Positions 18,246 to 34,861 are shown, numbered from the stretch's first letter. The stretch is DNA of 51,549 nucleotides from Candidatus Gastranaerophilales bacterium (GCA_944324375.1 CALUWB010000007.1:1-51549), one strand, 5' to 3'. Translations and numbers: made by a program. Notes: generated by a model not told the origin, from the letters alone.

Positions 18246-20225
18246 GTGGTAGTAGAAGAAACAAGTAAAGTGTGTTTGTCCGAAAACGCTATTAAAGTTT
18301 TAGAAAAACGTTATTTAAAGAGAGATAAAGATGGTAATTGTGTAGAAACTCCTGCTGATATGTTCAGAAGAGTTGCTGATACTTTAGCTTCTGGAGATTT
18401 AAAATTTGGAAAAACTCAATCAGAAGTAAAAGAATTATCAGACAGATTTTATGAAGCAATTACAAATAGATATTTTATGCCTAACTCTCCAACATTAATG
18501 AATGCAGGACGAGAATTAGGTCAATTAGCTGCATGTTTTGTTTTACCTGTTGAAGATTCATTAGAAGGAATTTTTGAAACAGTAAAAAATACAGCATTAA
18601 TACATAAATCAGGTGGTGGAACAGGTTTTTCATTCTCAAGATTAAGACCTAAAAATGATGTTGTTCGCTCTACTATGGGTGTTTCATCAGGTCCTGTATC
18701 TTTTATGGAAGTATTTAATGCTGCTACAGAAGCAGTTAAACAAGGTGGCACAAGACGTGGTGCCAATATGGGTATCTTAAGAGTAGATCACCCTGATATT
18801 TTAGAATTTATTGACTGTAAAGCAGATAATACTAAGTTAAATAACTTCAATATTTCTGTTGCTATTACAAATAAATTTATGGATGCATATCTTAAAGGTG
18901 AAGATTATGATTTAATCCATCCTAATACAAAAAAAGTTGTTGGCAGATTAAATGCTAAAAAAGTATTTGATTTAATCGTTGATGGTGCTTGGAGAAATGG
19001 AGAACCTGGTATTATATTTATTGATACTATGAACTCAGATAATCCAACACCATTAGTTGGTGAAATTGAGTCAACAAATCCTTGTGGGGAAGTTCCTTTA
19101 TTACCTTTTGAAGCTTGTAACTTAGGTTCTATTAACTTAAATAGAATGGTTAAAGAAGAAAATGGAAAACAAGTTGTTGATTGGGATTTATTAGGAAAAA
19201 CAACAAGAACAGCTATTAGATTCTTAGATAACGTTATTGAAATTAATAACTATCCATTACCAAAAATTTCTGAAATGGTTCAAAATAACAGAAAAATTGG
19301 TTTAGGTGTTATGGGTTGGGCTGATATGCTTATGAAGATGGGTATTTCTTATGCATCTGAAGAAGGTATTAAATTAGCTGCTCAAGTTATTGAATTCATT
19401 GATTACGAATCAAAATGCGAATCTGTAGAATTATCTAAAGAACGCGGCAGATTTAATAACTTTAAAGGAAGTATTTATGATCAAGAAAATTATTTATACA
19501 ACAAATTTAAAGGAAAATCTGCAGGTATTATAACAGATGAACAATGGAAAGAATTAGATGCTCAAATTAAAGAATACGGTATCAGAAACGCGACTACAAC
19601 TTGTATTGCTCCAACTGGTACAATTTCAATGATTGCATCAGCTTCAGGTGGTGTTGAACCATTATTTGGTCTTGTATTCTCAAGATTAATTATGGATGGA
19701 ACTGAAATGTTAGAAGTTAATGACATTTTCAAAGATTATATGATTGCAAGAGGTCTTTATTCAGAAGATTTAATGAAAAAGATTGCAGTTGATGGTTCTG
19801 TAGCCCACGTTGATGGTATTCCAGAAGATATCAAAAAAATCTTTGTAACAGCTCATGATGTTACTCCATACTGGCATGTAAAAATGCAAGCAGCATTCCA
19901 ATTACATACAGATAATGCAGTATCAAAAACTGTTAATTTTGTTGAAACAGCAACAAGAGAAGATATTGAAGAAGCATATGTTCTAGCATACAAAAATAAC
20001 TTAAAAGGTATTACAGTATACAGAAACAATTCAAGATTCTTCCAACCAATGAATATTGAAAAGAAAGCTGAAGAAACAAAAGAAGAAACAGTTGTAGAAG
20101 AAACAGAAGAATATAATCCAACAGGAGAAATTAAAACAGTAACTTGTCCTGAGTGTGGAAATAAAGTAGAAATGGCAGAAGGATGTTTCATCTGTCTAAA
20201 CTGTGGTTATTCAGGCTGTTCGTAA
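18246..20225 (+). CDS. nrdJ: Adenosylcobalamin-dependent (class II) ribonucleoside-diphosphate reductase
   Basis: 659 residues from a GTG start that has GGAGG six bases upstream. It reduces ribonucleotides to deoxyribonucleotides using a thiyl radical generated from coenzyme B12, without oxygen. Key residues are visible: thiyl Cys280 within N278-P-C280-G-E282 (the N-x-C-x-E of all reductases) and the redox pair Cys97 (LAACFV) and Cys291 (EACNLGSINL). The ATTTCIAPTGTISMIA phosphate-binding block is near 450. The C-terminal zinc-like module CPECGN...CFICLNCGYSGC supplies the shuttle thiols. The length is on the short side for this family (TIGR02504-like). A 13-bp terminator follows. Confidence 0.95.
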   Translation: MVVEETSKVCLSENAIKVLEKRYLKRDKDGNCVETPADMFRRVADTLASGDLKFGKTQSEVKELSDRFYEAITNRYFMPNSPTLMNAGRELGQLAACFVLPVEDSLEGIFETVKNTALIHKSGGGTGFSFSRLRPKNDVVRSTMGVSSGPVSFMEVFNAATEAVKQGGTRRGANMGILRVDHPDILEFIDCKADNTKLNNFNISVAITNKFMDAYLKGEDYDLIHPNTKKVVGRLNAKKVFDLIVDGAWRNGEPGIIFIDTMNSDNPTPLVGEIESTNPCGEVPLLPFEACNLGSINLNRMVKEENGKQVVDWDLLGKTTRTAIRFLDNVIEINNYPLPKISEMVQNNRKIGLGVMGWADMLMKMGISYASEEGIKLAAQVIEFIDYESKCESVELSKERGRFNNFKGSIYDQENYLYNKFKGKSAGIITDEQWKELDAQIKEYGIRNATTTCIAPTGTISMIASASGGVEPLFGLVFSRLIMDGTEMLEVNDIFKDYMIARGLYSEDLMKKIAVDGSVAHVDGIPEDIKKIFVTAHDVTPYWHVKMQAAFQLHTDNAVSKTVNFVETATREDIEEAYVLAYKNNLKGITVYRNNSRFFQPMNIEKKAEETKEETVVEETEEYNPTGEIKTVTCPECGNKVEMAEGCFICLNCGYSGCS

Positions 20226-20246: not shown

Positions 20247-20280
20247 AAAGAGGTTGGTTTTATAACCAACCTCTTTATTT
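20247..20280. terminator. Terminator overlapping the stop codon of the convergent gene
   Basis: AAAGAGGTTGGTT (20247-20259) pairs perfectly with AACCAACCTCTTT (20264-20276) over a TTAT loop, then ATTT. It ends nrdJ on the plus strand. The stop codon of the minus-strand phosphoesterase (20277-20275) lies inside the stem, and the A-rich left arm could also serve the minus direction. Confidence 0.9.
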
Positions 20281-20943
20281 ATGTAAATGCTTTGCTCCAT
20301 CTTTTAACGATCCATAATAGTATGAATTAAAACCTACTTTATCCATTAAATAACAAACTTTTTCTATATCATATTCTACTCGATACAATTTAAAGTTTGC
20401 TCCATCAAATACAGCAAATGCTGATTTATTATTATTATCTCTTGGTTGACCAACTGATCCCGGATTACAATATATTTTATTATCATATTTATCTATCCGT
20501 TGATTATGAGTATGTCCGGAAACAAAAATATTTCCTTTTAATTTTTCAAAATACTCTTGATTGGGTTCTAAATACTCATCTATAGGATTTGTCCAGCCAC
20601 CATGCACCATAGAAATATTATGTTCATTACGAATTATTGGAAATGTTTTCAACCAATTCTTATTGGTTTCTGTAATTATTTCTCTTTGATACTTCAAACA
20701 ATCATTAACACTTTGTGAACGAGGGCAAAAACTATCTGCAACCATGTACCAATCATGGTTTCCCATAACACATTTCACATTTCGTTGACGCAATTCATCG
20801 CAACATTCATTTACTTGCGAATAATATCCAACAACATCGCCTAAGCAATAAATTTCATTAATTGACATTTTATCAATCAGTGACAAAACTTCTTTCAAAG
20901 CCTCGTAATTTCCATGAATATCAGATATTATTGCTATTGTCAT
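20275..20943 (-). CDS. Calcineurin-like metallophosphoesterase (YfcE/MJ0936-type)
   Basis: 222 residues with all metal-binding motifs in order: D8-x-H10 (ISDIHGN), GD in CLGDVVGY (about 35), GNHDW (N62-H63), a His in MVHGGW, and SGHTHNQ near residue 143. Such enzymes are cytosolic phosphodiesterases or phosphatases; the substrate is unknown. It is last in the glycan operon, with its start 23 bases inside the ATP-grasp gene, so coupled translation is likely. It may dephosphorylate a sugar intermediate, or simply be a housekeeping gene caught in the operon. Confidence 0.88.
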   Translation of the reverse strand: MTIAIISDIHGNYEALKEVLSLIDKMSINEIYCLGDVVGYYSQVNECCDELRQRNVKCVMGNHDWYMVADSFCPRSQSVNDCLKYQREIITETNKNWLKTFPIIRNEHNISMVHGGWTNPIDEYLEPNQEYFEKLKGNIFVSGHTHNQRIDKYDNKIYCNPGSVGQPRDNNNKSAFAVFDGANFKLYRVEYDIEKVCYLMDKVGFNSYYYGSLKDGAKHLHK

Positions 20944-21901
20944 ATATCACATAATCCTCTATATATCTTATTACCTTACCAAATTTTAACTCTAAAACTT
21001 TAGGTTTTATCCCTTCTAAATAATAATCCACTGCAATTTTTGATTCATTATAATTAAACTTTGCTCTAATTGATGTTGATGATGATATTCTAGGGTTAAC
21101 TTCAAGTAGTTTAAGCTGATTATTATCTTTTCTAAATTGAAAGTTTGTTGGACCAATTGGTTTTAAAATAGCAGCTAAATCATTCAAAATATTTGATATA
21201 TTATCTAATTCTACAGTTTCTGCTATTTCTGTATAACCATCTTTTGATAATTTACGTTTTAACTGATGAAAATATAATAAATTACTATCGTTATCAAAAA
21301 AAGCTGATACTGTATATTCTTCTTCATCAGTACCTATAATTTGTTGCGCTAAATGTGTTGTTCCTATAAATGATTTATAAATATTATATTCTTCAGCATT
21401 ATTTATTTTATAAATATCTTTAGAACCAAAACCTTTTCTAGGTTTTATTAAAAATGGAAGTCCTAAATTGTGACTCAAATATTCAAAATCATTCTTTAAT
21501 TCAGATAAGATTGCATATTTAGTATTTTTTATTGTTTGATAAAAAAGGAATTTATCCTCACATAAATTTATTAAATCAGAATTATTTAAAAGAATTTTAA
21601 CACCTGTTTTTTCTATAACACTACGATTGTTATTCCATGCATACATATCTGCTTCTATTCCCGGAATAATAATATCGATAGAATATTTTTTAATAATATC
21701 TATTAACCAATCAATATAATTTTCATCAGATGTTTTGGGAGCTAATTCAAAAATGTCAGCAAAACAATTCGCTGGAGATTGTTTATAAATTGTTGTTCCA
21801 ATTAACTTATAGTTATTATAAATTCTTAATGATTTTAATATTCCATACCCGACTATTCCGGAAGCTCCTGAAACGAGAATTTTCTTATTATTCGATTGCA
21901 T
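20921..21901 (-). CDS. ATP-grasp protein (carbamoyl-phosphate-synthase-like)
   Basis: 326 residues. An N-terminal Rossmann-like pre-ATP-grasp domain starts KKILVSGASGIVGYGILKSL (about 6-25). The ATP-grasp core follows: LGLPFLIKPRKGFGSKDIY (about 148-166) is the nucleotide-binding Lys/glycine loop, QQIIGTDEEEYTVSAFF the central strand, and LLEVNPRISSSTS (about 268-280) supplies the Mg-binding E-x-N. Family members ligate a carboxylate to an amine or thiol. It overlaps the ThDP enzyme gene by 14 bases. In this operon it could acylate an amino sugar with an amino acid or hydroxy acid (inference). Confidence 0.88.
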   Translation of the reverse strand: MQSNNKKILVSGASGIVGYGILKSLRIYNNYKLIGTTIYKQSPANCFADIFELAPKTSDENYIDWLIDIIKKYSIDIIIPGIEADMYAWNNNRSVIEKTGVKILLNNSDLINLCEDKFLFYQTIKNTKYAILSELKNDFEYLSHNLGLPFLIKPRKGFGSKDIYKINNAEEYNIYKSFIGTTHLAQQIIGTDEEEYTVSAFFDNDSNLLYFHQLKRKLSKDGYTEIAETVELDNISNILNDLAAILKPIGPTNFQFRKDNNQLKLLEVNPRISSSTSIRAKFNYNESKIAVDYYLEGIKPKVLELKFGKVIRYIEDYVIYDNSNNI

Positions 21902-23615
21902 AATTAATTTCTTCCTCTAACTTTAGCATTTCATCTTCCGACAACAATGGATTTTGTCTATCAATAACATCTCCAGGTTCTGGATAATTTTCCATATTTT
22001 GTGGCAAAATAACCTCTATAAATCTTGGAGATGACATACTTATAAAATCTTTTATTTTTGAATAATCATTAACTGTTTTAATACAAAGATATGGTATTTC
22101 GTATGCATTTGCAATAGCTTCAAAATTAGGATTAGCATAACCATCAACAGAAGCATAAAATCTACCATTATATAACTTCTCTTGTGTTTTTCTTATCATT
22201 CCAAGACAATTATTATTCATTAATATTACATTAATAGGAAGATTATCTCTTTTTATAGTTTGCAATTCTTGAATATTCATTTGCAAACCACCATCTCCAT
22301 TTACGGAAATTATTGCAACTTTTTTATCTGTAGCATAAGCTGCACCTATTGCTGCAGGTAATGAAAACCCCATAGAGGCATATCCTGCAGAATTAATAAT
22401 TCGTCTATCATCATCAAGTCGGATTGCTTGAGCTACACTCATTTGATTTTGTCCTACATCTGAACATATAACGGCATTTTTAGGCAAATAATCTGAAATA
22501 TATCTTATAAAATCATTTGCATTTACATTATTTGAATTTATTGCATAAGAAGGATATCGTTCTTTTAATGATGATAATACATTTAACCAATTTGAATAAT
22601 TCAAATTAGCATAATCTTCTTTATTTAACTTATCCAAGAAATTTTCGGTACTAGAATATAAACTAATCGTTTCAGGAATTTTTCTACCTAACTCAACCTT
22701 ATCAATATCAACTCTTATAACTTTAGTATCTGAAGATAATTGAGTTCTATACCCTCCAAGCTGTCTTTCATCTAATCGAGAACCTAAAACAATTAAACAA
22801 TCACTATTTGCGACTGCTAAATTTGCATATCTATTACCATAATGCCCTATAAAACCAATAAAACATTCATGATTATGTGACAAAACATCTAAACCACATA
22901 ATGAAGCGACAACAGGGATTTTTATTTTAGTTAAAAAATGCTTTAATTTTTCTCGACATACATTACTTCGCATTCCTCCACCAACTAAAATTATTGGTTT
23001 TTTAGCATTTTTTAATATCCCTTTGATTTCATTTACATTTATAAAATCATAATTATCCTCTTGAGGTTTTATAAAACTTCTCAATTCAGAAATATCAATA
23101 TTCTCTCTTGCAATATTATAAGGAATATCTATTAGTACAGGACCTTTTCTTCCTTCATTTGCAATATAAAAAGCCTTTTCTAGTTCATATTTTATATCTA
23201 AAGGTTTTGTTATTCTTGTAGAATATTTAGTTATTTCAGATACCATTGATACAATATCTATTTCTTGAAAATTATTTTGTCTAATATTGCTTGTCTCTTT
23301 CATCCCTAATAAATGAACATTTCCTGTTATATATATACAAGGAATTGAATCACAATAAGAATTGGCAATTCCACCTATTAAATTTATTGCTCCTGGTCCA
23401 GATGAAGCAATTGAAATTCCAGTTTTATCAATTAAATTAGCATATGCATTTGCTGAAAAAGAAGAAGCCTGTTCATTATAATTCTGAATAAATTTTATAT
23501 TTGATTTTGTTTCAATAGAATCAATCAAATCAATAATAGTACCACCTTGGTATCCAAATACTATCTTTATACTTTTATTTTGTATATATTTAGCAATATA
23601 ATCAGATAATTTCAT
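21888..23615 (-). CDS. Thiamine-diphosphate enzyme, acetolactate-synthase-like
   Basis: 575 residues with the three domains of the ThDP family. N-terminal PYR domain: FGYQGGTIIDL, and the cofactor-activating Glu48 in NYNEQASSF. Central domain: PIILVGGGMRSN, about residue 205 on. C-terminal PP domain: GDGGLQMNIQELQTIKRDN at about 438 with N-N about 27 residues later, the GDG-N motif. No ilvN regulatory subunit or other branched-chain gene is nearby; the gene sits among glycan genes. ThDP enzymes such as YerE and its relatives attach a two-carbon unit to keto sugars, so a branched-sugar role is a reasonable hypothesis. Other options are a decarboxylase for an unusual 2-keto acid or true acetolactate synthase. 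Confidence 0.88.
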   Translation of the reverse strand: MKLSDYIAKYIQNKSIKIVFGYQGGTIIDLIDSIETKSNIKFIQNYNEQASSFSANAYANLIDKTGISIASSGPGAINLIGGIANSYCDSIPCIYITGNVHLLGMKETSNIRQNNFQEIDIVSMVSEITKYSTRITKPLDIKYELEKAFYIANEGRKGPVLIDIPYNIARENIDISELRSFIKPQEDNYDFINVNEIKGILKNAKKPIILVGGGMRSNVCREKLKHFLTKIKIPVVASLCGLDVLSHNHECFIGFIGHYGNRYANLAVANSDCLIVLGSRLDERQLGGYRTQLSSDTKVIRVDIDKVELGRKIPETISLYSSTENFLDKLNKEDYANLNYSNWLNVLSSLKERYPSYAINSNNVNANDFIRYISDYLPKNAVICSDVGQNQMSVAQAIRLDDDRRIINSAGYASMGFSLPAAIGAAYATDKKVAIISVNGDGGLQMNIQELQTIKRDNLPINVILMNNNCLGMIRKTQEKLYNGRFYASVDGYANPNFEAIANAYEIPYLCIKTVNDYSKIKDFISMSSPRFIEVILPQNMENYPEPGDVIDRQNPLLSEDEMLKLEEEINYAIE

Positions 23616-24566
23616 TTATATAATTTCCAACTCTGCATAACCAAAACCGTCATAGCCAAAATTATTCCCACAATACAACATAACATATTTATTATTTATT
23701 TTAGTAATATGAGGATAAGCTATCATTTCAGAATCCCAACCAGAATCTGAAACTGTTATACCTGCTTTAGAATCATCTCTTATCCAAGTATATAGATCTT
23801 TTGAATAAGCATATCCAATAGAATAGCCTCTACCCTTAGTATTTCTAAAATCTAATCCATAACGATAGCAAAAAAACATATGATATATGTTATCAATTTT
23901 CATAATTGCAGCACTAGTTTGACTTTCATATTCTACTTTTGGCTTAATTATTGGTGTTGGATCTCGTTGCCAATCTATTCCATTATCAGAAGTAGCATGA
24001 ACAAGTAAATATTGTGATTCCATTTTTCCATCACCTTGAAGCCATTTTTGTCCTGATAAATAAAACATATGCCACTCATTATTTGAAAATTTATATACTT
24101 GTGGACAGGCATGCAAATATGGTTCGGACATTGTTGGACCAATAATTGGACCTTTTCCTTCTTTAATAAAATAATTAGTATCATTACCTTTGGCCAAACC
24201 AATTTCCCAAGAATATGGTGTACTTACTTGACGATTCCAACCACAATAATAAAGATAATATTCATTATCATTAACTTTTATTATACTATTTGGCATGGAT
24301 CCAAATTCATCAAACTCCCCAATATTTCCTAACTCCATTATAGGTTTATTGGCAATCCTTAGTATTTTTTTAAGATTATTTTTATCCAAATCAACCCAAC
24401 CTCCATAGGATCGAGACATATTGTCCTGATACTTTTCTCTTGTTGAAAAAAATACTCTAATATAATCACCTAAATCTAAAGTAAAAGGACATTGTGCATG
24501 ACTATACATCCAATCAGAATAGTGATTTGGAGAAAAAATTAAACCTTTTTTATGCCATTTAAACAT
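23616..24566 (-). CDS. Five-bladed beta-propeller glycosidase-like protein (GH43/GH32-clan-like)
   Basis: 316 residues without signal peptide. Repeated blade strands end in aromatic-rich turns: YYLYYCGWNR, WHMFYLSGQKW, YHMFFCYRYG, YVMLYCGNNFGYDGFGYAEL. That is the pattern of GH43/GH32/GH130-type propellers. Acidic residues that could be catalytic are present (for example D at WDSEM and E at SEPYLHACPQVY), but I cannot assign them. Lack of a secretion signal and its place between WbqC and the ThDP enzyme suggest it handles a cytosolic sugar intermediate or acts as a non-catalytic sugar-binding protein. Its stop abuts the next gene (TAAATG). Confidence 0.72.
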   Translation of the reverse strand: MFKWHKKGLIFSPNHYSDWMYSHAQCPFTLDLGDYIRVFFSTREKYQDNMSRSYGGWVDLDKNNLKKILRIANKPIMELGNIGEFDEFGSMPNSIIKVNDNEYYLYYCGWNRQVSTPYSWEIGLAKGNDTNYFIKEGKGPIIGPTMSEPYLHACPQVYKFSNNEWHMFYLSGQKWLQGDGKMESQYLLVHATSDNGIDWQRDPTPIIKPKVEYESQTSAAIMKIDNIYHMFFCYRYGLDFRNTKGRGYSIGYAYSKDLYTWIRDDSKAGITVSDSGWDSEMIAYPHITKINNKYVMLYCGNNFGYDGFGYAELEII

Positions 24567-24630
24567 TATATTACCTCTTGATTATTATTTTACTATAAAT
24601 TAATAATCTACTCATTTGAATATTTTTTAT

Positions 24631-25338
24631 TTAATTTAAAATATACTGCAATAAATAATTTTTAATCATACTTATATCATTAAACATTAAAATATCTATA
24701 ATTGACAAATTTGAGATAAAAAAATTGTTAAATTGCTTATAATTAAAATCTAATGTTTTTATAAAATTTAATTTAATATTATTTTGTTTAAATTGTAATT
24801 CAGAATATAAATTTTTACCTCCAATTGCATTTATATAACGAGAAGCATTTAACTGCTTATTAATTTCTATAATTCTATCCGAACCTTTCAATGTATTATT
24901 TTTATTAATTTCTGATGATATTAAAATTTCTGTATTAATATCTAAATATAAATTAATTTTATCAATTGAATATTTTATATAACCTGTTAAATCATTATTA
25001 TTATTAAAAATTATATCTTCTAAAAGTGGATAAACATAAGAAAAATAAGGAGCTTTTTTGTATGCAATAATTATTGTTTTTAGAAAATTCTCTTTATCTT
25101 TATTATTAAATTTCAATTTTGTATCCTTAATTAATTTATTTTGAGATATTTTTTCTATAGGAATTGTAAATAAATGAGATTTCCCGTTTATTAAAATATA
25201 ATTTCTATTAATGTAGCCTTTTTTAATAAAACTAACATCATCTAATAAAACAAAAGTATCTACAGCATTAATAAGCTGCCAATAACCTATATATGGAAAA
25301 AAATATGGTTGCATTATACCTATTATTTTATCTTCCAT
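24631..25338 (-). CDS. WbqC-family protein
   Basis: 235 residues. The N-terminus IGIMQPYFFPYIGYWQLINA with FVLLDDVSFIKKGYINRNYI is the characteristic opening of the WbqC-like family (PF08889). LYLDINTEILISSEI and GGKNLY are further conserved blocks. Members occur in O-antigen and modified-sugar clusters, often beside VioA-like aminotransferases; their chemistry is not settled. It starts one base after the FkbM methyltransferase stop. Confidence 0.9.
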   Translation of the reverse strand: MEDKIIGIMQPYFFPYIGYWQLINAVDTFVLLDDVSFIKKGYINRNYILINGKSHLFTIPIEKISQNKLIKDTKLKFNNKDKENFLKTIIIAYKKAPYFSYVYPLLEDIIFNNNNDLTGYIKYSIDKINLYLDINTEILISSEINKNNTLKGSDRIIEINKQLNASRYINAIGGKNLYSELQFKQNNIKLNFIKTLDFNYKQFNNFFISNLSIIDILMFNDISMIKNYLLQYILN

Positions 25339-25339
25339 T

Positions 25340-26407
25340 TTACACCTTCGCGTATATTACTGTTTCTGTGCGATTAATTGTATAATGATCAATATACAAT
25401 TTGTATTCTGGTAATATTGATTTTATTAATTGTGGTAAAACTATCAAATCATCTTTTTTATGATATGCACATATTGCCAATTTAGGCTTGAACGTCCTTA
25501 TTGTATTAATTGCACCTTTTAATGCTAATTCTTCTGAACCTTCTATATCCATTTTTATGAAATTAATTCGTTCTATATTATTCTGTTTTACAAAATCATC
25601 AATTGTAATTGTTGTTGTTATATTACTTTTTTCTGAATTATTTATAAAATTAGTAGCTGGACCATCTGAAGTAAATGAAATTTTTTCTCCAGTCTTATCT
25701 GAAACGGCATTGTTATATAAATGAATTTTATCTTTATAGTGTTGATTTAATTCTACATTTTTATTGAAAATATCAATATTTTCAGAAACAAATTCGAATG
25801 AGTAAACATGCCCACCTTTTGTTTTAGATGCAAAATATAATGCTGTATCACCATAACAAGCTCCACAATCCAATACATTATCATTTATTTCAGGTTTTAC
25901 TATATCTAAATACCTATATTGTTCTATATTAAAATTGGTTGAAATTCCTAATGGACAATACCATAACTTTACATCATAACCCATTTTAGACAAATCGTAT
26001 TTCTTTAAATGCATTCTGTCATTCCAAATTATTATCTCATCAGTGTTATCCATTACCATATCTTCTATTTTATCAATATGGATATAATGTTTAGAATAAT
26101 ATATTGGAAATCTTAAAATTGGTGAGCCACTAATCCTATATAATGCTACTTTTAGAAACATTTCTTTTGAATAATCATCTTCAAACATATTATATGATTT
26201 AATTAAATTTCCTAAATCATAATATTTCTTAAATTTATTTTTTATACGAAATGTTCTTATTAACTTCTTTATTATAGATGTTTCTACTTTAACTTTTTGT
26301 GTATAATCTGGCAAAATATCACTTGTTTTATCTGGATAATAGTAACAAACCGATTCACTAATTAAACCATCTAATCTATTAAAAAATTCAACATATTCCT
26401 TTTTCAT
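25340..26407 (-). CDS. FkbM-family methyltransferase
   Basis: 355 residues. An N-terminal extension of about 165 residues precedes the SAM-binding Rossmann domain. Motif I is NVLDCGACYGDTALYF (177-192), then VYSFEFVSENIDIF (the acidic ribose-binding strand), NAVSDKTGEKISFTS, and INFIKMDIEGSEELALKGA, the signature of FkbM-type O-methyltransferases. It probably methylates a sugar hydroxyl. The gene is tightly packed (1 base to wbqC-like, 15 bases from the aminotransferase). Confidence 0.9.
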   Translation of the reverse strand: MKKEYVEFFNRLDGLISESVCYYYPDKTSDILPDYTQKVKVETSIIKKLIRTFRIKNKFKKYYDLGNLIKSYNMFEDDYSKEMFLKVALYRISGSPILRFPIYYSKHYIHIDKIEDMVMDNTDEIIIWNDRMHLKKYDLSKMGYDVKLWYCPLGISTNFNIEQYRYLDIVKPEINDNVLDCGACYGDTALYFASKTKGGHVYSFEFVSENIDIFNKNVELNQHYKDKIHLYNNAVSDKTGEKISFTSDGPATNFINNSEKSNITTTITIDDFVKQNNIERINFIKMDIEGSEELALKGAINTIRTFKPKLAICAYHKKDDLIVLPQLIKSILPEYKLYIDHYTINRTETVIYAKV

Positions 26408-26422
26408 TTATTACTTTCAATC

Positions 26423-27526
26423 CTATTCTACTATTTGACATATTTTATCTAATAATTCAATACTCAAATCTCCATAATAAGGTAAACATAATACTCTATT
26501 TTTTATATCGTTTACCACATCTAAACTTGTTCTAACAATTGATGTATCATCTCGATAACATTCATAATCAGAACAAGCTGGATAAAAATATTTTCGGACT
26601 AAAATATTATTACCTCTAAATCTATCATATAATTCGTCTCTTGATATTGGATAATCATCCTCTATTACAATTGGATAATATTGATATGAATTGGTAACGT
26701 TATCTGGCATTTTAGGTACTCGTATACCTTGAATTTTAGATAATCTATCATCATAATATTCTTTAACCTTTTTTCTTTTATTTTGTTCTTCTTTATAAAT
26801 TTGTAAATTTAATAATCCCATAGCAGCTGAAAATTCATTCATTTTACCATTTATACCAACTTCTTCAACTACTTCTTCATTCTTTATTCCAAAATTTCTA
26901 AGATTATATATTTTTTTTTCTAGTTTGTCATCATTATACGTTAAACAACCACCTTCTATGGTATTAAACAATTTTGTTGCGTGAAATGAGAACATTGATA
27001 TATCACCATAATTCCCAATCCCAACTCCATCAATCTCTGTTGAAAAACAGTGTGCTGAATCATAAATTACTTTTAAATTATATTTTTTAGCAATTTCATC
27101 TATTTTCTTCACATTACAAGGAAATCCATATACATGAACCCCTAAAATTGCAGAAGTATTAGTTGTTATCAATTCTTCTATCTTGTCTGCATCTATTGTC
27201 ATTGTATTAGGTTCAATATCACAAAATACTGGTTTTAAACAATTCCAAACTATTGAATGTGGAGTCGCTGCAAATGTAAAAGGTGTTGTTATAACTTCAC
27301 TACCCACTGGCAAATTCATAGCTTTTAATGCAACTAATAATGCCGTAGTACCATTATTAAACAAAGAACAATGAGAAACCTTTAACTCGTCTTTTAATAT
27401 ATGCTCTAAAAGATTATGCTTTTCTCCCATATTAGTAATCCATTGAGTTTCATAAATCTCTTTTGATACATTTATGAAATCATCAAAATCTGGTAATAAT
27501 GGCCTTGTCAAATACACTTTATTCAA
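26423..27526 (-). CDS. DegT/DnrJ/EryC1/StrS-family sugar aminotransferase
   Basis: 367 residues. PLP-binding residues are clear: TTPFTFAATPHS (phosphate contact), Asp156 in VIYDSAHCF and the internal-aldimine Lys185 in FSFHATKLFNTIEGG. The form HATK-x-FNT-x-EGG and HVYGFPCNVKKI are typical of VioA/FdtB/QdtB-like enzymes that aminate a keto group of dTDP-6-deoxyhexoses. The keto-sugar supply genes (RmlA/B-like) are not in the window. It is next to a WecF-like transferase gene, so the product is likely a 4-amino- or 3-amino-dideoxy sugar passed to a lipid-linked glycan. Confidence 0.92.
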   Translation of the reverse strand: MNKVYLTRPLLPDFDDFINVSKEIYETQWITNMGEKHNLLEHILKDELKVSHCSLFNNGTTALLVALKAMNLPVGSEVITTPFTFAATPHSIVWNCLKPVFCDIEPNTMTIDADKIEELITTNTSAILGVHVYGFPCNVKKIDEIAKKYNLKVIYDSAHCFSTEIDGVGIGNYGDISMFSFHATKLFNTIEGGCLTYNDDKLEKKIYNLRNFGIKNEEVVEEVGINGKMNEFSAAMGLLNLQIYKEEQNKRKKVKEYYDDRLSKIQGIRVPKMPDNVTNSYQYYPIVIEDDYPISRDELYDRFRGNNILVRKYFYPACSDYECYRDDTSIVRTSLDVVNDIKNRVLCLPYYGDLSIELLDKICQIVE

Positions 27527-27532
27527 TATTCT

Positions 27533-28639
27533 CTAATCCTTATCTATAAATACTTTAGCCCATTCTTCTAACCGATGTTTTGAATTATTATCACAATATT
27601 TTAATGCTGCATTAATATTTTTATCTCTTAAATCTGATGAATATTCTATAAATTCACCCATACTCATACCTTTTATTTTTAATGAATCAAAAACTCTTAA
27701 CCCAAATTTTTCAACATATTCAAGAGATGTTGTATTATATGGTAAAAAAACTTTTGCTCCTAAGGCTAAGTCAAATATTGCATTACCTACACCCTGTTGT
27801 CTATTTTGACATAATATTAATATATCATTTTTACTTAGAAAATTCGCATAATCTTCTAATGATATTAACTTATCTATATATTTAAATTTCTCTCCAAAAA
27901 TTTCTTTTCCTTTTCTTATTATTTCATTTTTATACTGCATTTTTCCATAAGACAATACTGTTCTAACAATAATATTTTTATCACTATATTTTGATAATAT
28001 ATCTAGCATTTCTAATGTTGATTCATCACAAGAATTATTTATTTGAACAACAATATTATCGGTATTTATATGTGAAATATTTTCTAATAAAGTTTTATCC
28101 ATTAATGCAGGATATGAAGAATTATACAAAATAGAATTTGAATTATACTTTTCCTTTGCAATTTTTTCATCTCCTGTTATTAAAGAAATATAACCCTTGA
28201 AATTTTTTCTCACAAAATCATTCTTTTCATCTCTTGGAGCATTATATAAATCTCCTCCCCATATTGTCCAATATGATTTTTTCAACAATTCTGGTTCTCT
28301 ATATAACCTATCGACAACTCCTGGCATAAATAAGGAATGAAAGATTATTTTATCAATATTATCCTCAAACAATCCTTTTATATCCTTAAAATAAACATAT
28401 TCATATACATTTCTTCCTTTAGGAAATAATGTTGGAGGTTTATTTTTACAAGCTCTATAACATAAAAACATATGTTCATCATTATTAAAATTTTTATTAA
28501 AAAAATCGACAAGAGGTTTATTAAACTTATCATTTACCATTATATGAATATATTTATATTTTCTTATATCACGGTTTATTCGCGATGTAAGAATTTTACT
28601 TTTTAACCGTAAATAATAAACCTTTATTTTGTTTAACAT
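27533..28639 (-). CDS. WecF-like 4-acetamido-4,6-dideoxyhexose transferase (GT56 family)
   Basis: 368 residues from the ATG at 28639, chosen because AGAGG lies five bases upstream; the frame is open to 28690. The sequence follows the GT56/TDP-Fuc4NAc transferase pattern: IHIMVNDKFNKPLVDFFNKN at the start, IIFHSLFMPGVVDRLY, YWTIWGGDLYN and NRQQGVGNAIFDLALGAKVF in the donor-binding half. In enterobacteria WecF adds Fuc4NAc to lipid III of the common antigen. Here it more likely adds an amino sugar made with the adjacent aminotransferase. It appears to open the eight-gene glycan operon reading to 20275. Confidence 0.82.
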   Translation of the reverse strand: MLNKIKVYYLRLKSKILTSRINRDIRKYKYIHIMVNDKFNKPLVDFFNKNFNNDEHMFLCYRACKNKPPTLFPKGRNVYEYVYFKDIKGLFEDNIDKIIFHSLFMPGVVDRLYREPELLKKSYWTIWGGDLYNAPRDEKNDFVRKNFKGYISLITGDEKIAKEKYNSNSILYNSSYPALMDKTLLENISHINTDNIVVQINNSCDESTLEMLDILSKYSDKNIIVRTVLSYGKMQYKNEIIRKGKEIFGEKFKYIDKLISLEDYANFLSKNDILILCQNRQQGVGNAIFDLALGAKVFLPYNTTSLEYVEKFGLRVFDSLKIKGMSMGEFIEYSSDLRDKNINAALKYCDNNSKHRLEEWAKVFIDKD

Positions 28640-28777
28640 TACTCCCTCTTTCAATATATTCATAATAGCATAATTTGATAAAAAAAACATATTTCTAGTC
28701 TTTTCTAACTTTTATTATTTACTTTAATATCCATAAATGATATCATATTTAAGATATATTCGGTTATTTGAGGGAAA

Positions 28778-31489
28778 ATGATGGACGATTTAAAACAATT
28801 TCTTAACGGTAATATGATGTCTTATCAACTTGATGAATTAAAAGATAAGATTCAAGACAAGAAAGTTATCATTTATGGTGCTGGCTTACTATTTCAAACA
28901 ATTGTAGAAAATTACGATTTGTCAGATTTAGATATTATCGGAATTTGTGATAAAAAATTTTCATTAGATGACGAAAAAAAAGATTTTTTAGGTTATAACA
29001 TTATTCCATTTTTTAAACTACCTGAATATCAAGCAGAATATATTATTGTAGCTATAAGAAATTATTATCCGGTAATTACAGAACTTAAACATATTATAAA
29101 AGATATTAATATCATACCTTTTGTTAATTTTGATTATAAATCTAACCCTAATAAAAACATTAGTAAATTTATGAAAAATATATTTTCTATTAATAAAACA
29201 AGATATTCTAAAGAATTCAAAATTTTAGGACTTAATTTAAAATTTGAAGATAAATACAAAAAACTATTCGAAAGTTATAAAAATCTTGAATCTAAAGTAA
29301 ACTATAACCAACAACTCTTAAATAAAATCAATATGGTTATTTCTAACGAACTCAATACTGTAAAACTTGAAGAAGAAATTAACAACTTATCTGAATTAGG
29401 AATTAATCAGACTAAAAGAACCCCACAATTAATCGTTTCACTTACATCATATCCTGAAAGAATGTACGATATTCATTATTGCCTTTATTCTCTTTTAACG
29501 CAAAGTATTAAACCTGACCAATTAATTTTATGGTTAGCAGAAGAAGAATTCCCTAACAAAGAAAAAGATATTCCTAAAAAAGTTTTAAATTTACAAAAAT
29601 TTGGATTAACAATAAAATGGTGCAACAATATTAAATCATATAAAAAACTTATACCAACTTTAAAAGAATACCCTAATGATATTATTGTAACAGCTGATGA
29701 TGACATCTTTTATCAAAGAAATTGGTTAGAAAAATTATACAATGCATATTTAGAAGACAACCAATATATCTATTGTCATAATGCTCATAAAATAACATTT
29801 GAAGGGGAAAATATAAAATCTTATACTCATTGGAAAAAATCAATCAATGATAATACTGCTGATTTTATCAATATTGCTATTGGTTGTGGGGGAATCTTAT
29901 ACCCTCCTAATAGCTTAAATAAAGATATTTTTAACCAAGAATTATTCATGTGGTTAGCCCCAAATGCTGATGATATGTGGTTCTGGGCAATGGCTGTACT
30001 TAATAATACAAAAATTAAAATAATTAAAGCACCTATTAATCAAGTATTATATACAAATCCTAGAAGGGAACTTGGATTATCCACTGAACATACACTATAC
30101 CAAATAAATCTTAAAGGTGGAAACGATTTACAATTAAAAAACATTCTTGAACAATATCCTGAAATCAAAGATAAATTGAGAGATTATCATTATGTATTTG
30201 AATGTTATAACGATGATATTTATAATTATGTCCTATTTCTTGACCATAAATTTGCATATGATTATGTTACAAAACAAATTAAAGGAAATTCATCTATTCT
30301 TGAAATAGGTTGTGGTGATGGATATGGAACATCTTTCCTTGCAAAACATTTTAAACAAGTAGAAGCAATAGACATTTCTAAAGAAGCCATACAAAAAGCA
30401 AAGGCTATATATAAATTAGATAACTGTAATTTTAGTGTAAGTACAGGAGAAAAATTAAATTTCCCTGATAATTCATTTGATGCAATAGTGTCTTTCCATG
30501 TTATTGAACACGTAAAAAATGTTAGAAAATATTTAAAAGAAATAAAAAGAGTTTTAAAACCGGATGGGAAATTTATATTAACAACACCATCTAGAACTCA
30601 TAGACTTGCACCAAAACAAAAACCTTGGAACGAGGAACATTTAAGAGAATATGACTCTGAAACATTGAAAAAAGAAATTAATAAAGTATTTAATAATTAT
30701 AAAATATTCTCTATTACTGCAAAACAAGAAATTAAAGATATTGAATTTGATAGAGTTATAGATAAACGAGCTGATTATAACGGTATTAGAAAAAATATCA
30801 ATACTAATATTGATTATAAAAAAGAGTTTTCTATAAATGATTTTTATGTTTCTGAAGAAGATCCTGATTCTGGATTAGATTTAATGGTTACGAATATTAA
30901 TTTTGATTCCAAAGAATATTGGGAAAATAGATACAAATATCAAGGAAATTCAGGAGCTGGAAGTTATGGAAAGTTAGCTGAATTTAAAGCTGAAGTCATT
31001 AATGAATTTATAAATGAAAATAATATAAATAATGTGATTGAATTTGGTTGTGGAGATGGTAATCAACTAAATTTATTCAATATAAAAAATTATCTAGGGT
31101 TTGACGTCTCTGATACTATTATTAAACTTTGTCAAGATAAATTCTTTGATAATCCTAATTACAAATTTAAAAATATGTCAGAATATAGAGGTGAAAAAGC
31201 AGAACTTACACTATCCCTTGATGTTATATATCATTTAATAGAAGATAGTGTTTTCAATGATTACATGAATAAACTTTTCTATGCTTCTAATAAATATGTT
31301 ATCATTTATGCTTCTAATAAAAATGAAGAACATTATATTCATGTTAAACATAGAAAATTTACGGACTGGATTGAAAAAAATAAAAAAGAATGGAAATTAA
31401 TTAAACACATTCCTAATAAATACCCATACGATATTAACAAAATTGGAGAATCTTCTTTTGCTGATTTCTATATTTTTGCTAAATCATAA
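28778..31489 (+). CDS. Four-domain fusion: Rossmann module, glycosyltransferase and two SAM methyltransferases
   Basis: 903 residues; GAGGG precedes the ATG, with a second ATG directly after. (1) About 20-120: a Rossmann-like module (KVIIYGAGLLFQTIVEN, then LDIIGICDKKFS and EYIIVAIRNYYPVI) akin to the C-terminal modules of the two GT2 proteins beyond it. (2) About 215-445: a GT-A-like domain (LIVSLTSYPERMYDIHYCLY, IIVTADDDIFYQRNW with a DDD metal motif, and an APNADDMWFWA block). (3) About 503-640: a class I methyltransferase (ILEIGCGDGYGTSFLA, FDAIVSFHVIEHV). (4) About 750-903: a second methyltransferase (VIEFGCGDGNQLNLF, LTLSLDVIYHLIED). It is the only plus-strand gene in the island and converges, with a 22-base overlap, on the GT2 gene. 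It may build and cap a glycan in one polypeptide. Confidence 0.85.
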   Translation: MMDDLKQFLNGNMMSYQLDELKDKIQDKKVIIYGAGLLFQTIVENYDLSDLDIIGICDKKFSLDDEKKDFLGYNIIPFFKLPEYQAEYIIVAIRNYYPVITELKHIIKDINIIPFVNFDYKSNPNKNISKFMKNIFSINKTRYSKEFKILGLNLKFEDKYKKLFESYKNLESKVNYNQQLLNKINMVISNELNTVKLEEEINNLSELGINQTKRTPQLIVSLTSYPERMYDIHYCLYSLLTQSIKPDQLILWLAEEEFPNKEKDIPKKVLNLQKFGLTIKWCNNIKSYKKLIPTLKEYPNDIIVTADDDIFYQRNWLEKLYNAYLEDNQYIYCHNAHKITFEGENIKSYTHWKKSINDNTADFINIAIGCGGILYPPNSLNKDIFNQELFMWLAPNADDMWFWAMAVLNNTKIKIIKAPINQVLYTNPRRELGLSTEHTLYQINLKGGNDLQLKNILEQYPEIKDKLRDYHYVFECYNDDIYNYVLFLDHKFAYDYVTKQIKGNSSILEIGCGDGYGTSFLAKHFKQVEAIDISKEAIQKAKAIYKLDNCNFSVSTGEKLNFPDNSFDAIVSFHVIEHVKNVRKYLKEIKRVLKPDGKFILTTPSRTHRLAPKQKPWNEEHLREYDSETLKKEINKVFNNYKIFSITAKQEIKDIEFDRVIDKRADYNGIRKNINTNIDYKKEFSINDFYVSEEDPDSGLDLMVTNINFDSKEYWENRYKYQGNSGAGSYGKLAEFKAEVINEFINENNINNVIEFGCGDGNQLNLFNIKNYLGFDVSDTIIKLCQDKFFDNPNYKFKNMSEYRGEKAELTLSLDVIYHLIEDSVFNDYMNKLFYASNKYVIIYASNKNEEHYIHVKHRKFTDWIEKNKKEWKLIKHIPNKYPYDINKIGESSFADFYIFAKS

Positions 31490-32691
31490 ATATTAGGTAA
31501 AAGTTCTACCTCTGGATAATTATTTGCTAAATATTCTTGTAATTCAGGGTATATATCTTCATAATTGTTTTTTATAGTTAAAAGAATACTCTCAGGAGAT
31601 AAATCAGCTAAAGCAGAAGGAGAGTATACCTTATAACCTTCTATATAATCTCCCCAAATAGAAGAATTATTATCAATAATTCCAATTACATTATCTAACT
31701 TTTCTTGACCTTTTAAAAGGTTTTGTAAATATAAACTTGCACCCCAAAATACTATTCGCTTATTAGATATATATTTTTTTAAATAATCATATGTAATATA
31801 ATCAGTTCTAAAAGCTGAAGAAAACATCTTATATTCATTTGGTAATAATTCTTTTATATCATGTACAAATTTTTCATATTGCTCATTATTCAATCTTGGA
31901 ACAAGTGCTTGAACATGAGCACGGAATATTTTTATCAAAGGAAGTTTTAATTCTTTATATACACCATAAAAATTTAACAAATCTCTTGTTTGCATATAAC
32001 ATTTAATAATATTTATTACATACTTAGAATAAGTAGAAGTTATACTACCTTTTCTATGTTTGCGATAATTTATATATACCTTATCAAGATATACAATTCG
32101 TCTTGCTAATATTCTTATTGCATAAGCAAAACTTGTATCATTAAAACATTCTATGCTTTGAAATTCTAAATTGTTTTCTACTATAAGCTCTCTTAAATAT
32201 AGTTTATTCCAAGGAGCTGGTGATAACATTTTAAAAATATCCTTTGGATAATCCTTCCAATTAAAAGGTTTATCTATTGGAGTATTGGAATAAACAAATG
32301 GCACACTTTTTAAGTCAATATCACCATTTTCATAATATCGGTCAGCATTACATACTACGATATCAGCATGATGTCTTTCTGCTGCATCATACATTTCTTG
32401 AAACATATTGGGCTTAAAATAATCATCAGAATCTAAAAAATAGATATATTTACCACTTGACTTACTTAAACCTAAATTTCTTGCAGCACCTGCATTTTGA
32501 TGAGCTTGCTGGAGGACAATAAATCTATTATCATTTAACTCATATTCTTTTAAAATCTCATAGGAATTATCTGTTGAACCATCATCTACACATATTATTT
32601 CTATATCTTGAAAAGTTTGATTAATAATACTATCTAATGTATTTCTTAATACATCACCGACATTATAAACTGGTACAACTACTGATATCAT
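31468..32691 (-). CDS. GT2 glycosyltransferase with C-terminal Rossmann-like module
   Basis: 407 residues. The GT-A domain (1 to about 230) opens ISVVVPVYNVGDVLRNTLDS, with IICVDDGSTDNS and the metal-binding LDSDDYF. LAPAPWNKLYLRE-like sequence (SPAPWNKLYL) marks the acceptor side. Residues about 300-400 form an extra module, RIVFWGASLYLQNLLKG, then NVIGIIDNNSSIWG and GYKVYSPSALADLSPESILL, also found in the next gene and at the N-terminus of the 28778 fusion. The last 22 bases overlap the convergent fusion gene. The upstream GT2 gene stops 17 bases before it, so the pair is co-transcribed. Confidence 0.9.
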   Translation of the reverse strand: MISVVVPVYNVGDVLRNTLDSIINQTFQDIEIICVDDGSTDNSYEILKEYELNDNRFIVLQQAHQNAGAARNLGLSKSSGKYIYFLDSDDYFKPNMFQEMYDAAERHHADIVVCNADRYYENGDIDLKSVPFVYSNTPIDKPFNWKDYPKDIFKMLSPAPWNKLYLRELIVENNLEFQSIECFNDTSFAYAIRILARRIVYLDKVYINYRKHRKGSITSTYSKYVINIIKCYMQTRDLLNFYGVYKELKLPLIKIFRAHVQALVPRLNNEQYEKFVHDIKELLPNEYKMFSSAFRTDYITYDYLKKYISNKRIVFWGASLYLQNLLKGQEKLDNVIGIIDNNSSIWGDYIEGYKVYSPSALADLSPESILLTIKNNYEDIYPELQEYLANNYPEVELLPNIYDLAKI

Positions 32692-32708
32692 TATTATTTA
32701 TATTCCTC

Positions 32709-33938
32709 CTATGATAAAGCAAATATATTTGGCAATAATTCTATATTTGAATGATTTTGAGAAAACAATTTTATTAAATCTTTATAAATATCCTCATTAT
32801 TAGACAGAACTGTTAATAATACAGCATCTGGGTTTAATTCTTTTATCTTATCTGGAGAATAAACAGTATAATTCCCTACCTGCTTTCCCCATAAACTTTG
32901 GTTTCTATCTACTATACCTATTATATTAGGATTTTTTTCTTTTTCTGACTCTAATACTCCTCTTATAAAAACACTTGCTCCCCATAATAGTGTTTTTTTA
33001 TCTCCTATTATATTTTGCAGATATTCTGGAGTTATATATGTTTTTTGAAACACTGGTTTAAATTCATCCCATTCATCCGGCATAATATTCTTACAATCTT
33101 GTAATAATTTTAAATATTGTTCATTATTACATAAACTTATTCCTGAACGAATATGATTTTTAAAACCATTTATAAAACCTTCTTTATAATACAAATAAAG
33201 TCCTTTATCCTCCAAAAAATTTTTTACAAAAGCAGCTGCTTTCAATATGTTTTCACAACTATTTGCACGAACTTTTGCAATACTACCTTCTCGATTAAAT
33301 CTATAATTAATTAATTCATCTTTTATTACAATTATTCGCTTTGCACAAATTCTTGAAATATGACCAAATCCTACATCATTACTTGATGATAAGTTTTGAA
33401 ATTTTAAACCGTTTTCTAAAATTAAACTTTTTTTATATAACTTATTCCAAGGAACAACACAAAACAATCCAAATATATCTTCTGCATAATCATCTGGAGA
33501 AAAAACTTTATCAAATACAATTTTATCAAGATTAATTGGCCATAATGGATTTCCTGATTCTATAATATTTTTATTTTCATCAACTTTTCTTGCAGAACAT
33601 ACAACCATATCTGCATCATTTTCTTTTGCTGTTGAATATAACTTTTCTAACATATTAGGTTCAAAATAATCATCTGAATCTAAAAACTGAATATAATCAC
33701 CTTTTGCAACTTCTATCCCTCTATTTCTTGCAGCACCAGCGCCTTTATTATCTTGTTGTATTATAATAAATCGTTCATCTTTATTTTTGTATTCTTCTAA
33801 TATTTTATAAGATTCATCAGTTGAACCATCATCAACGCATATCAGCTCAAAATCTTGATATGTTTGATTCAATAAACTATCTATACACTCTCTTAAATAT
33901 TTTTCTACATTATATACTGGTATAATAATTGATATCAT
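32709..33938 (-). CDS. GT2 glycosyltransferase with C-terminal Rossmann-like module (paralogue)
   Basis: 409 residues, a paralogue of its downstream neighbour. GT-A motifs are ISIIIPVYNVEKYLRECIDS, LICVDDGSTDES and FLDSDDYFEPN. The C-terminal module (about 303-400) reads KTLLWGASVFIRGVLE, then NIIGIVDRNQSLWG, GNYTVYSPDKIKELNPDAVL and LLPNIFAL. The GT domain presumably transfers sugars onto the glycan made by this island. The C-terminal module may bind a nucleotide or act as a docking surface; its role is unknown. No good Shine-Dalgarno lies next to the ATG; see the leader at 33953-33996. Confidence 0.9.
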   Translation of the reverse strand: MISIIIPVYNVEKYLRECIDSLLNQTYQDFELICVDDGSTDESYKILEEYKNKDERFIIIQQDNKGAGAARNRGIEVAKGDYIQFLDSDDYFEPNMLEKLYSTAKENDADMVVCSARKVDENKNIIESGNPLWPINLDKIVFDKVFSPDDYAEDIFGLFCVVPWNKLYKKSLILENGLKFQNLSSSNDVGFGHISRICAKRIIVIKDELINYRFNREGSIAKVRANSCENILKAAAFVKNFLEDKGLYLYYKEGFINGFKNHIRSGISLCNNEQYLKLLQDCKNIMPDEWDEFKPVFQKTYITPEYLQNIIGDKKTLLWGASVFIRGVLESEKEKNPNIIGIVDRNQSLWGKQVGNYTVYSPDKIKELNPDAVLLTVLSNNEDIYKDLIKLFSQNHSNIELLPNIFALS

Positions 33939-34024: not shown

Positions 34025-34861
34025 TTAACTCCACTTAATTCCTACTATTGCCTTAAATTTATTTACAAAATCGTCAAAACTTATATTTGTTTTATAATTC
34101 GTCCTTTTATTCAATATTTTTACTGTTTGTGTTTTTTGATTTACAGATACAATTGGTAATGTATGCCAGCTTGAAATACCCTTTACTTTTTTATTCCCTG
34201 TAACTGCAACAAAACTATAATCCTTAGGATCTTTTGTACCTAAATCATTTAGTAAATCCAAAACTTTATCCTTATGCTTCTTTAATGATAAACTTGTAAC
34301 CTCTTCTCCGTAAGATATCGGTGTTTTACCTGTAAACCACTTAAATGCATTAGACGGTTTATTATATTCACAAGCTCTATTTACAATAATCGGAAACATA
34401 TATAGCCTTGATAAAAAAGGCTTCATTGATGGATGTTTTTTTACCAATTTTCGAACTGCAATATTTACACCTAAACTTAATCTTGCTTTTGCAGTTTCAA
34501 AACTTAAACCTCCTCGTGATATATCATAATAATCATTAAACAAATCAGAATGACCACTAAAATAATCTATTTTAGTAGATTTATATATTTCTTCCTTTCC
34601 TTTTACATTTAATTTAAATTTATATGCAGGTAAAATATTTTCCCCTTTTTGAATTTTAATCCTATTTTTTAATAAATCTCTTCCTTTTTCAGATGCCAAT
34701 AAAGCATAACGGGTAGCTTCATCAAAACAATTTGCAATGATTTGGGGCTCTGTCATTGCTTTATTCAATTCTACATCTGTTAACGAACGCCACTTTATAT
34801 TTTTTACATCTGAAGATAAATATGGATAAATTTTTCGTAGGATAGAAAGTTTCATATTCAT
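34025..34861 (-). CDS. Papain/calpain-like (clan CA) cysteine peptidase-like protein
   Basis: 278 residues, no signal peptide. PQIIANCFDEATRYALLASE followed by KGRDLLKNRIKI resembles the active-site helix of C2-type peptidases ('GxCw/y..A.L..la ... g.e.lk..I'), with the candidate nucleophile Cys45. The end of the protein has SSWHTLPIVSVNQKTQTVKI followed by LNKR, equivalent to the catalytic His ('GHAY.v..v') and Asn ('l.NPW') strands: His233 and Asn251. The typical Trp or Tyr after the Cys is replaced by Phe-Asp, so activity is uncertain. Targets are unknown. Its start overlaps no neighbour; yidD and flhA lie upstream on the same strand. Confidence 0.6.
   Translation of the reverse strand: MNMKLSILRKIYPYLSSDVKNIKWRSLTDVELNKAMTEPQIIANCFDEATRYALLASEKGRDLLKNRIKIQKGENILPAYKFKLNVKGKEEIYKSTKIDYFSGHSDLFNDYYDISRGGLSFETAKARLSLGVNIAVRKLVKKHPSMKPFLSRLYMFPIIVNRACEYNKPSNAFKWFTGKTPISYGEEVTSLSLKKHKDKVLDLLNDLGTKDPKDYSFVAVTGNKKVKGISSWHTLPIVSVNQKTQTVKILNKRTNYKTNISFDDFVNKFKAIVGIKWS

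Follow-up and report, generated by a model that had tools for sequence, protein, structure and literature searches.

A variant, probably acyl-making gene set at an exchangeable, probable aminosugar locus beside flagellar genes in a Candidatus Gastranaerophilales bacterium

In the enterobacterial common antigen, the WecE/WecF segment accounts for dTDP-Fuc4N synthesis and Fuc4NAc transfer. The viosamine island of P. syringae (vioA, vioM, vioT, vioS, vioB, vioR and acp) yields dTDP-N-(3-hydroxybutyryl)-2-O-methylviosamine for flagellin (PMC3927599). Qui4N occurs with many N-acyl groups, and amino-acyl forms of Qui4N and Qui3N are known (PMC3210612). The characterised YerE enzymes use CDP-3,6-dideoxy-4-keto-glucose (PMC12247030). 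The locus described here is an exchangeable aminosugar locus of an already known kind; what is new is the variant gene set that would make the acyl group.

The locus lies in the window, i.e. the whole stretch of 51,549 nucleotides that was analysed, which makes up all of contig C7 in a genome of 2.03 Mb and 97% completeness. To judge by protein style the organism is probably a gut relative of cyanobacteria, from a lineage known mostly from genomes. Eight intact and closely packed minus-strand ORFs form one operon at 20275-28690, with spacings from promoter to end of 6, 15, 1, 64, 0, -14 and -23 bases (negative values are overlaps). This confirms the tightly packed eight-gene operon of a preliminary description, and its families for the GT56, DegT, FkbM, WbqC, ATP-grasp and metallophosphoesterase proteins hold as well, the family calls being Pfam matches each above its curated cut-off. 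Its start for the GT56 gene, 28639, is judged likelier than 28690. The island extends to 28778-33938, a part omitted there, with a 903-aa glycosyltransferase/methyltransferase protein and two GT2s, and abuts the flagellar genes. The features are, along the window:

18246-20225, plus strand: ribonucleotide reductase-like gene labelled nrdJ (a name given from reading the sequence), bounding the slot on the left; the G004 and G007 counterparts are 93-98% identical, and the gene is also recognisable in G005
20247-20276, no strand: terminator-like 13-bp stem between the convergent nrdJ (ending at 20225) and the operon (ending at 20275)
20275-20943, minus strand: metallophosphoesterase, YfcE-type (Metallophos_2 PF12850, 90.9 bits; TIGR00040, 65.6, above its cut-off)
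20921-21901, minus strand: ATP-grasp ligase, PRK12767 type (Pfam ATPgrasp_Ter and PylC-like_N; NF009402)
21888-23615, minus strand: ThDP enzyme, putative carboligase, YerE-related (Pfam TPP_enzyme N/M/C)
23616-24566, minus strand: GH130-like propeller protein (Glyco_hydro_130 PF04041, 30.2 bits)
24631-25338, minus strand: WbqC family protein (PF08889, 221 bits)
25340-26407, minus strand: FkbM-family methyltransferase (Methyltransf_21/FkbM PF05050, 81 bits; TIGR01444, 91.6 bits, above its cut-off)
26423-27526, minus strand: DegT sugar aminotransferase, DesI-like (Pfam DegT, 321 bits; PLP lysine motif)
27533-28690, minus strand: GT56 (WecF-like) glycosyltransferase (Pfam Glyco_transf_56; likelier start 28639, MLNKIKVYY...)
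28778-31489, plus strand: 903-aa protein combining a GT2-like region with one or more methyltransferase domains, oriented divergently to the operon; its G005 counterpart is 90% identical
31468-32691, minus strand: GT2 glycosyltransferase; 90% identical in G005
32709-33938, minus strand: GT2 glycosyltransferase; 86% identical in G005, 77% in G001
34025-34861, minus strand: 278-aa protein of no known family between slot and flhA; constant, also present in five further genomes of this genus
35102-37186, minus strand: flhA, right border of the slot, opening the flagellar run FlhA, FliH, FliF

The 13-bp stem looks like a terminator common to nrdJ and the operon. G+C content drops to 0.24-0.28 between about 20 and 34 kb, the flagellar genes having 0.30-0.34, and the genome has ten flagellin-domain matches. 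In the 903-aa protein, one methyltransferase domain is strong and a second methyltransferase-like region is discernible by eye at the C-terminus. The content and much of the gene order of the operon are found again in G007, G334, G249 and G279, which argues against a random assembly of genes.

The operon occupies a hypervariable, exchangeable slot between nrdJ and flhA. In G004, of the same genus, the only cassette genes in this slot are the phosphoesterase/ATP-grasp pair, accompanied by a few small ORFs, while in G007 it is empty, the 278-aa gene alone joining nrdJ and flhA, and the cassette sits on another contig (L057) away from flagellar genes, with a DegT 40% identical to that of the window. 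The G005 slot (L128:2557-10671) keeps the GT56 (68%), the GT2s and the 903-aa protein (68-90% identity overall) around a different acyl part, composed of WecE, an AsnB-like protein, phosphoesterase, SDR, ATP-grasp, radical SAM-SPASM and a PglD-like acyltransferase. In G001 the site (L129:3129-10328) was recognised via the 278-aa gene, a GT2 and the GT56, nrdJ not being seen in the stretch examined; it carries WecE, a hexapeptide acyltransferase, ketoreductase, KAS III, a GH130-like protein, methyltransferase, WbqC and a GT56 orthologous to that of the window (56% identical). WecE passes its cut-off at the slot in both G001 (WecE-type DegT, 590 bits against 435) and G005. In G249 an SDR stands in the ThDP position while phosphoesterase, ATP-grasp, WbqC and DegT (72%) are retained, and G279 has the same SDR arrangement without WbqC. 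FlhA is 98-100% identical among congeners against 66-91% for the neighbouring 278-aa protein, which suggests recombination around the slot. Since the GT56 and a 4-amino-sugar aminotransferase are constant and the genes between them change, the comparison argues that the acyl group is what varies. Moreover, the G001 slot combines enzyme types of the viosamine island with GT56, WbqC and GH130, so that the acyl-making part of the window looks replaced: ThDP enzyme, ligase and phosphatase appear to have taken the place of the fatty-acid-type route seen at the same site in this sister species.

The DegT protein has its PLP lysine (in SFHATKLFNTIEGG), and DesI-type 4-aminotransferases are both its closest curated model (TIGR04427 DesI, 294 bits, below the cut-off of 650) and its closest solved structure (2po3, 183 bits). 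On contig C71 of the same genome, rmlA, rmlB and rmlC sit together, whereas no CDP-glucose dehydratase (rfbG) was found and no candidate cytidylyltransferase (rfbF) passes, a missed gene being possible at 97% completeness; the remaining PF16363 matches are GalE and a weak LegB-like protein only. Judged from this inventory the genome can make dTDP-4-keto-6-deoxyglucose, which, rather than a CDP-sugar, is thus likely to be the precursor. A CDP-yersiniose pathway was rejected for the window's genome because its genes are absent, the same completeness leaving some room for a gap. The proposal in the preliminary description that an amino-dideoxysugar is acylated and transferred holds up as a frame, given the DesI-like DegT, rmlA/B/C, the ATP-grasp ligase and the WecF-family GT56.

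The ATP-grasp protein scores 222.1 bits on NF009402 (cut-off 218) with K117, K153, E267 and N269 conserved, and there is a 14-base overlap between its gene and the ThDP gene; the metallophosphoesterase has intact metal motifs, and 23 bases of its gene are shared with the ATP-grasp gene. The GT56 passes Glyco_transf_56 (41.6 bits, Pfam cut-off 25) and stays below the equivalog cut-offs (NF002756, 202 bits; WecF equivalog NF052570, 42 against 525), and a sequence search gave it no convincing relative of solved structure. The FkbM methyltransferase carries a 180-residue N-terminal extension. The propeller protein, previously described as cytosolic and GH43-like, shows no signal peptide, in line with the first term; the second gives way, as the sequence is GH130-like (PF04041, 30.2 bits against 26). 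Its model (pLDDT 92.7) is a five-bladed fold near GH130 structures (Z about 28; 27.9 to Teth514_1788 and 28.7 to BT_0996), with GH43 at Z about 24-26.

For WbqC the literature is almost nil. Its model (pLDDT 79) had no significant match in a Foldseek search, and in VIA-align the best Z was 7.3, the top rows being mostly HUP-fold enzymes; with Z always below 8 a HUP-like fold is tentative. PPAT, TyrRS, ArgRS, FAD synthetase, NadD and PanC are among the matches (Z 5-7.3), and the segment MQPYFFPYIGY falls where the HIGH-type motif sits. This may hint at PF08889 being an adenylyl- or nucleotidyltransferase.

By sequence comparison the “acetolactate synthase” of the operon is probably related, with some divergence, to the YerE group and is not a housekeeping AHAS. 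Among PDB entries 5ahk, which we take to be P. protegens YerE (PpYerE), scores highest with 328 bits, against about 270 bits for plant AHAS; JanthE (8rph), the only structure confirmed as YerE-like, reaches 250 and thus less than plant AHAS. The comparison by profile gave 594 against 456, and the curated AHAS cut-offs are missed (TIGR00118, 424.6 against 538; PRK08978, 427 against 738). The catalytic glutamate E48 and the GDG...NN motif are kept, while acceptor-channel residues are altered (N99, H101, L286, T477). Between the CDP-sugar group and the three closest members 26 positions differ, including Q99, T286 and F477 of the former. T477 aligns with plant AHAS W574 and is F in every CDP-type YerE relative compared, and the window's enzyme lacks the PKLE/PRLE-type segment that most CDP relatives have at the C-terminus. 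In a study on plant AHAS, W574 and P197 are described as influencing pyruvate binding (PMC7475246). Since Q99, T286 and mostly W393 are conserved even in housekeeping IlvB and changed in the window's clade, this clade could have lost carboligation. The conserved R284, aligned with plant R377, is compatible with a keto-acid acceptor, yet not diagnostic because it is shared with the CDP group. A second ThDP relative on contig C18 (34% identical) has counterparts in other genus members and is thus likely the housekeeping copy. A search for viral relatives of the enzyme found none.

Relatives of the ThDP enzyme occur in two gene contexts. Thirteen loci have the CDP-sugar genes rfbF/rfbG without ATP-grasp, and seven (the window, G007, G334 twice, G357, G386 and G066) have ATP-grasp without CDP genes, a split with Fisher p 1.3e-5 before correction for relatedness, from neighbourhood-scan HMMs partly built from the same loci; further loci show neither within the stretch examined. 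The neighbourhood comparison proposed earlier thus finds the ThDP/ATP-grasp pair in seven loci including the window, and rfbF/rfbG instead in 13 others. A GH130-like propeller and a phosphatase are each present in six of the seven. The closest relatives, in G007 (62%) and G334 (56%), lie in operons of the same kind as the window's, the G334 cassette having no phosphoesterase. The second G334 locus and those of G357, G386 and G066 have FdtA and a HAD phosphatase, a LegC-type aminotransferase in three of four, a GH130-like protein in three of four, and a second ATP-grasp type related to the window's by profile comparison. FdtA and LegC-type DegT, i.e. C3 amination, lie beside the ThDP/ATP-grasp module in L114, L116 and L120. 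The module is thus found in both C4- and C3-amination clusters and tracks the amine, not the ring position.

A single clade for all ATP-grasp-linked ThDP enzymes was considered (FastTree 0.95) but UFBoot is only 57, and monophyly is not claimed. Searching the whole phylum by profile with a strict cut-off gave no extra members beyond the window's own family. In one aminosugar cluster of G334 (L114:5579-10891), two different YerE-like ThDP genes flank GH130-like and ATP-grasp genes, and in a CDP-dideoxysugar cluster of G264 a transketolase-type N-terminal half (L118:5358-6152) lies near a YerE-like ThDP gene.

Our preferred reading, to which we give a probability of about 0.5, is that the operon serves to build and transfer an N-acylated 4-amino-4,6-dideoxyhexose of Qui4N or Fuc4N type whose acid is made separately and amide-linked. 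We infer every reaction and the identity of the acid from what was observed, namely gene content, recurrence, slot exchange, pathway inventory and residue changes. RmlA/RmlB, encoded elsewhere in the genome, would supply dTDP-4-keto-6-deoxyglucose, which DegT would aminate at C4. From a small acceptor and a pyruvate-derived hydroxyethyl unit, the ThDP enzyme might form a carboxylic acid resembling an acetohydroxy acid. The metallophosphoesterase would strip phosphate from this acid or its precursor, and the ATP-grasp ligase would form the amide between the acid and the amine of the sugar. O-methylation may fall to FkbM, and GT56 would move the finished sugar onto the chain made by the adjoining GT2s; the GH130-like and WbqC proteins are taken as module members with no step assigned. 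The sugar is probably the outer one of a flagellin or surface glycan, flagellin being read from the position of the locus alone, with the G007 copy lying elsewhere. More tentatively, a YerE-related ThDP enzyme may have been recruited to make a branched hydroxy-keto acid that an ATP-grasp ligase attaches to sugar amines, an N-acylation distinct from acyl-CoA acetyltransferases and the VioS/VioR/VioB route, in a cassette exchanged at a flagellar-adjacent site.

The best-surviving alternative, which we nevertheless consider doubtful, is a branched-sugar pathway with a YerE-type two-carbon addition to the keto group of a dTDP-keto-deoxysugar, DegT and ATP-grasp modifying another position or sugar. 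It is in keeping with the match to 5ahk, with the substrate of the characterised YerE enzymes, and with relatives at 38-44% identity that adjoin rfbF/rfbG in Desulfosporosinus, a Nitrospirae bacterium and Succinivibrio (rfbH in two of three). Against it speak the missing CDP-glucose dehydratase and cytidylyltransferase, the changed residue 477, the lost PKLE/PRLE-type segment, the lack of a ketoreductase for an acetyl branch in the operon, and the amino group that would occupy C4 if DegT is DesI-like. The two-carbon addition to the same ring suggested in the preliminary description is likewise not favoured, because a C4-aminated sugar keeps no C4 ketone, C3 clusters carry the module too and the W574 equivalent is changed. 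Acid synthesis with amide ligation is preferred since the ThDP enzyme tracks amine and ligase, and since G249 and G279 have an SDR in its place but still carry ATP-grasp, phosphoesterase and DegT.

Less probable still is that the ATP-grasp ligase loads the sugar amine with an amino acid (e.g. alanine or glycine), the ThDP enzyme acting in a separate step: the known amino-acyl Qui4N and Qui3N and the phosphoesterase/ATP-grasp pairs without ThDP in G004, G249 and G279 agree with this, whereas the ThDP/ATP-grasp overlap and the presence of both genes in seven of seven ATP-grasp-type ThDP loci do not. That the ThDP enzyme is an extra acetolactate synthase of amino-acid metabolism, present by chance, is very improbable and a housekeeping role was rejected, for although the catalytic glutamate and the three TPP domains are present it scores below every AHAS equivalog cut-off shown, is set apart from IlvB by the tree and T477, has a likely housekeeping counterpart elsewhere in the genome, on C18, and overlaps an ATP-grasp gene in a pair kept in G007 and G334.

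If true, the preferred reading would add a route to unusual N-acyl sugars that relies on ATP-grasp, a role for YerE-like enzymes beyond branched-sugar synthesis, and defined natural cassette swaps at one locus, where a GT56 constant across swaps makes acyl specificity directly testable. The ThDP clade with its altered acceptor channel could be of use for biocatalysis.

Literature searches turned up no paper on acetolactate synthase with WbqC and ATP-grasp and nothing relevant linking it with flagellin glycosylation, a paper on the Geobacillus flagellin island mentions no such genes, and none of the papers found describes the full set, for which the preliminary description knew of no pathway. 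Compared with YerE, ErwE and JanthE (PMC12247030), the window's ThDP enzyme shares the sequence group, ThDP motif, catalytic glutamate and polysaccharide context; unlike them, it has no CDP-sugar genes and is partnered by ATP-grasp and dTDP-aminosugar enzymes, with T477 instead of F and no PKLE/PRLE-type C-terminal segment. The propeller shares the five-bladed fold of GH130 beta-1,2-mannoside phosphorylases (Z about 28), yet is only 15-18% identical to them and sits in a biosynthetic operon; a phosphorylase role is putative. Both the enterobacterial common antigen and the window pair a DegT aminotransferase with a GT56 transferase, whereas the window's DegT is DesI-like, its GT56 is below the WecF equivalog cut-off and a WecD-type acetyltransferase was not seen in the operon. 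With the viosamine island the window shares a sugar aminotransferase, a methyltransferase, a dedicated glycosyltransferase and the exchangeable setting. VioA is a 4-aminotransferase; the window's DegT has DesI as its best model (294 bits, below 650). GT56 stands in place of VioT. VioS (KAS III), VioR, VioB and acp are missing, in contrast to the added ThDP enzyme, ATP-grasp, phosphoesterase, GH130-like and WbqC proteins. The island's acyl-supply genes (KAS III, ketoreductase, acyltransferase), absent from the window operon, are present in G001, whose slot has the same enzyme types except acp, which was not seen there. In the viosamine island the sugar is N-acylated by dedicated genes, and the same is proposed for the window.
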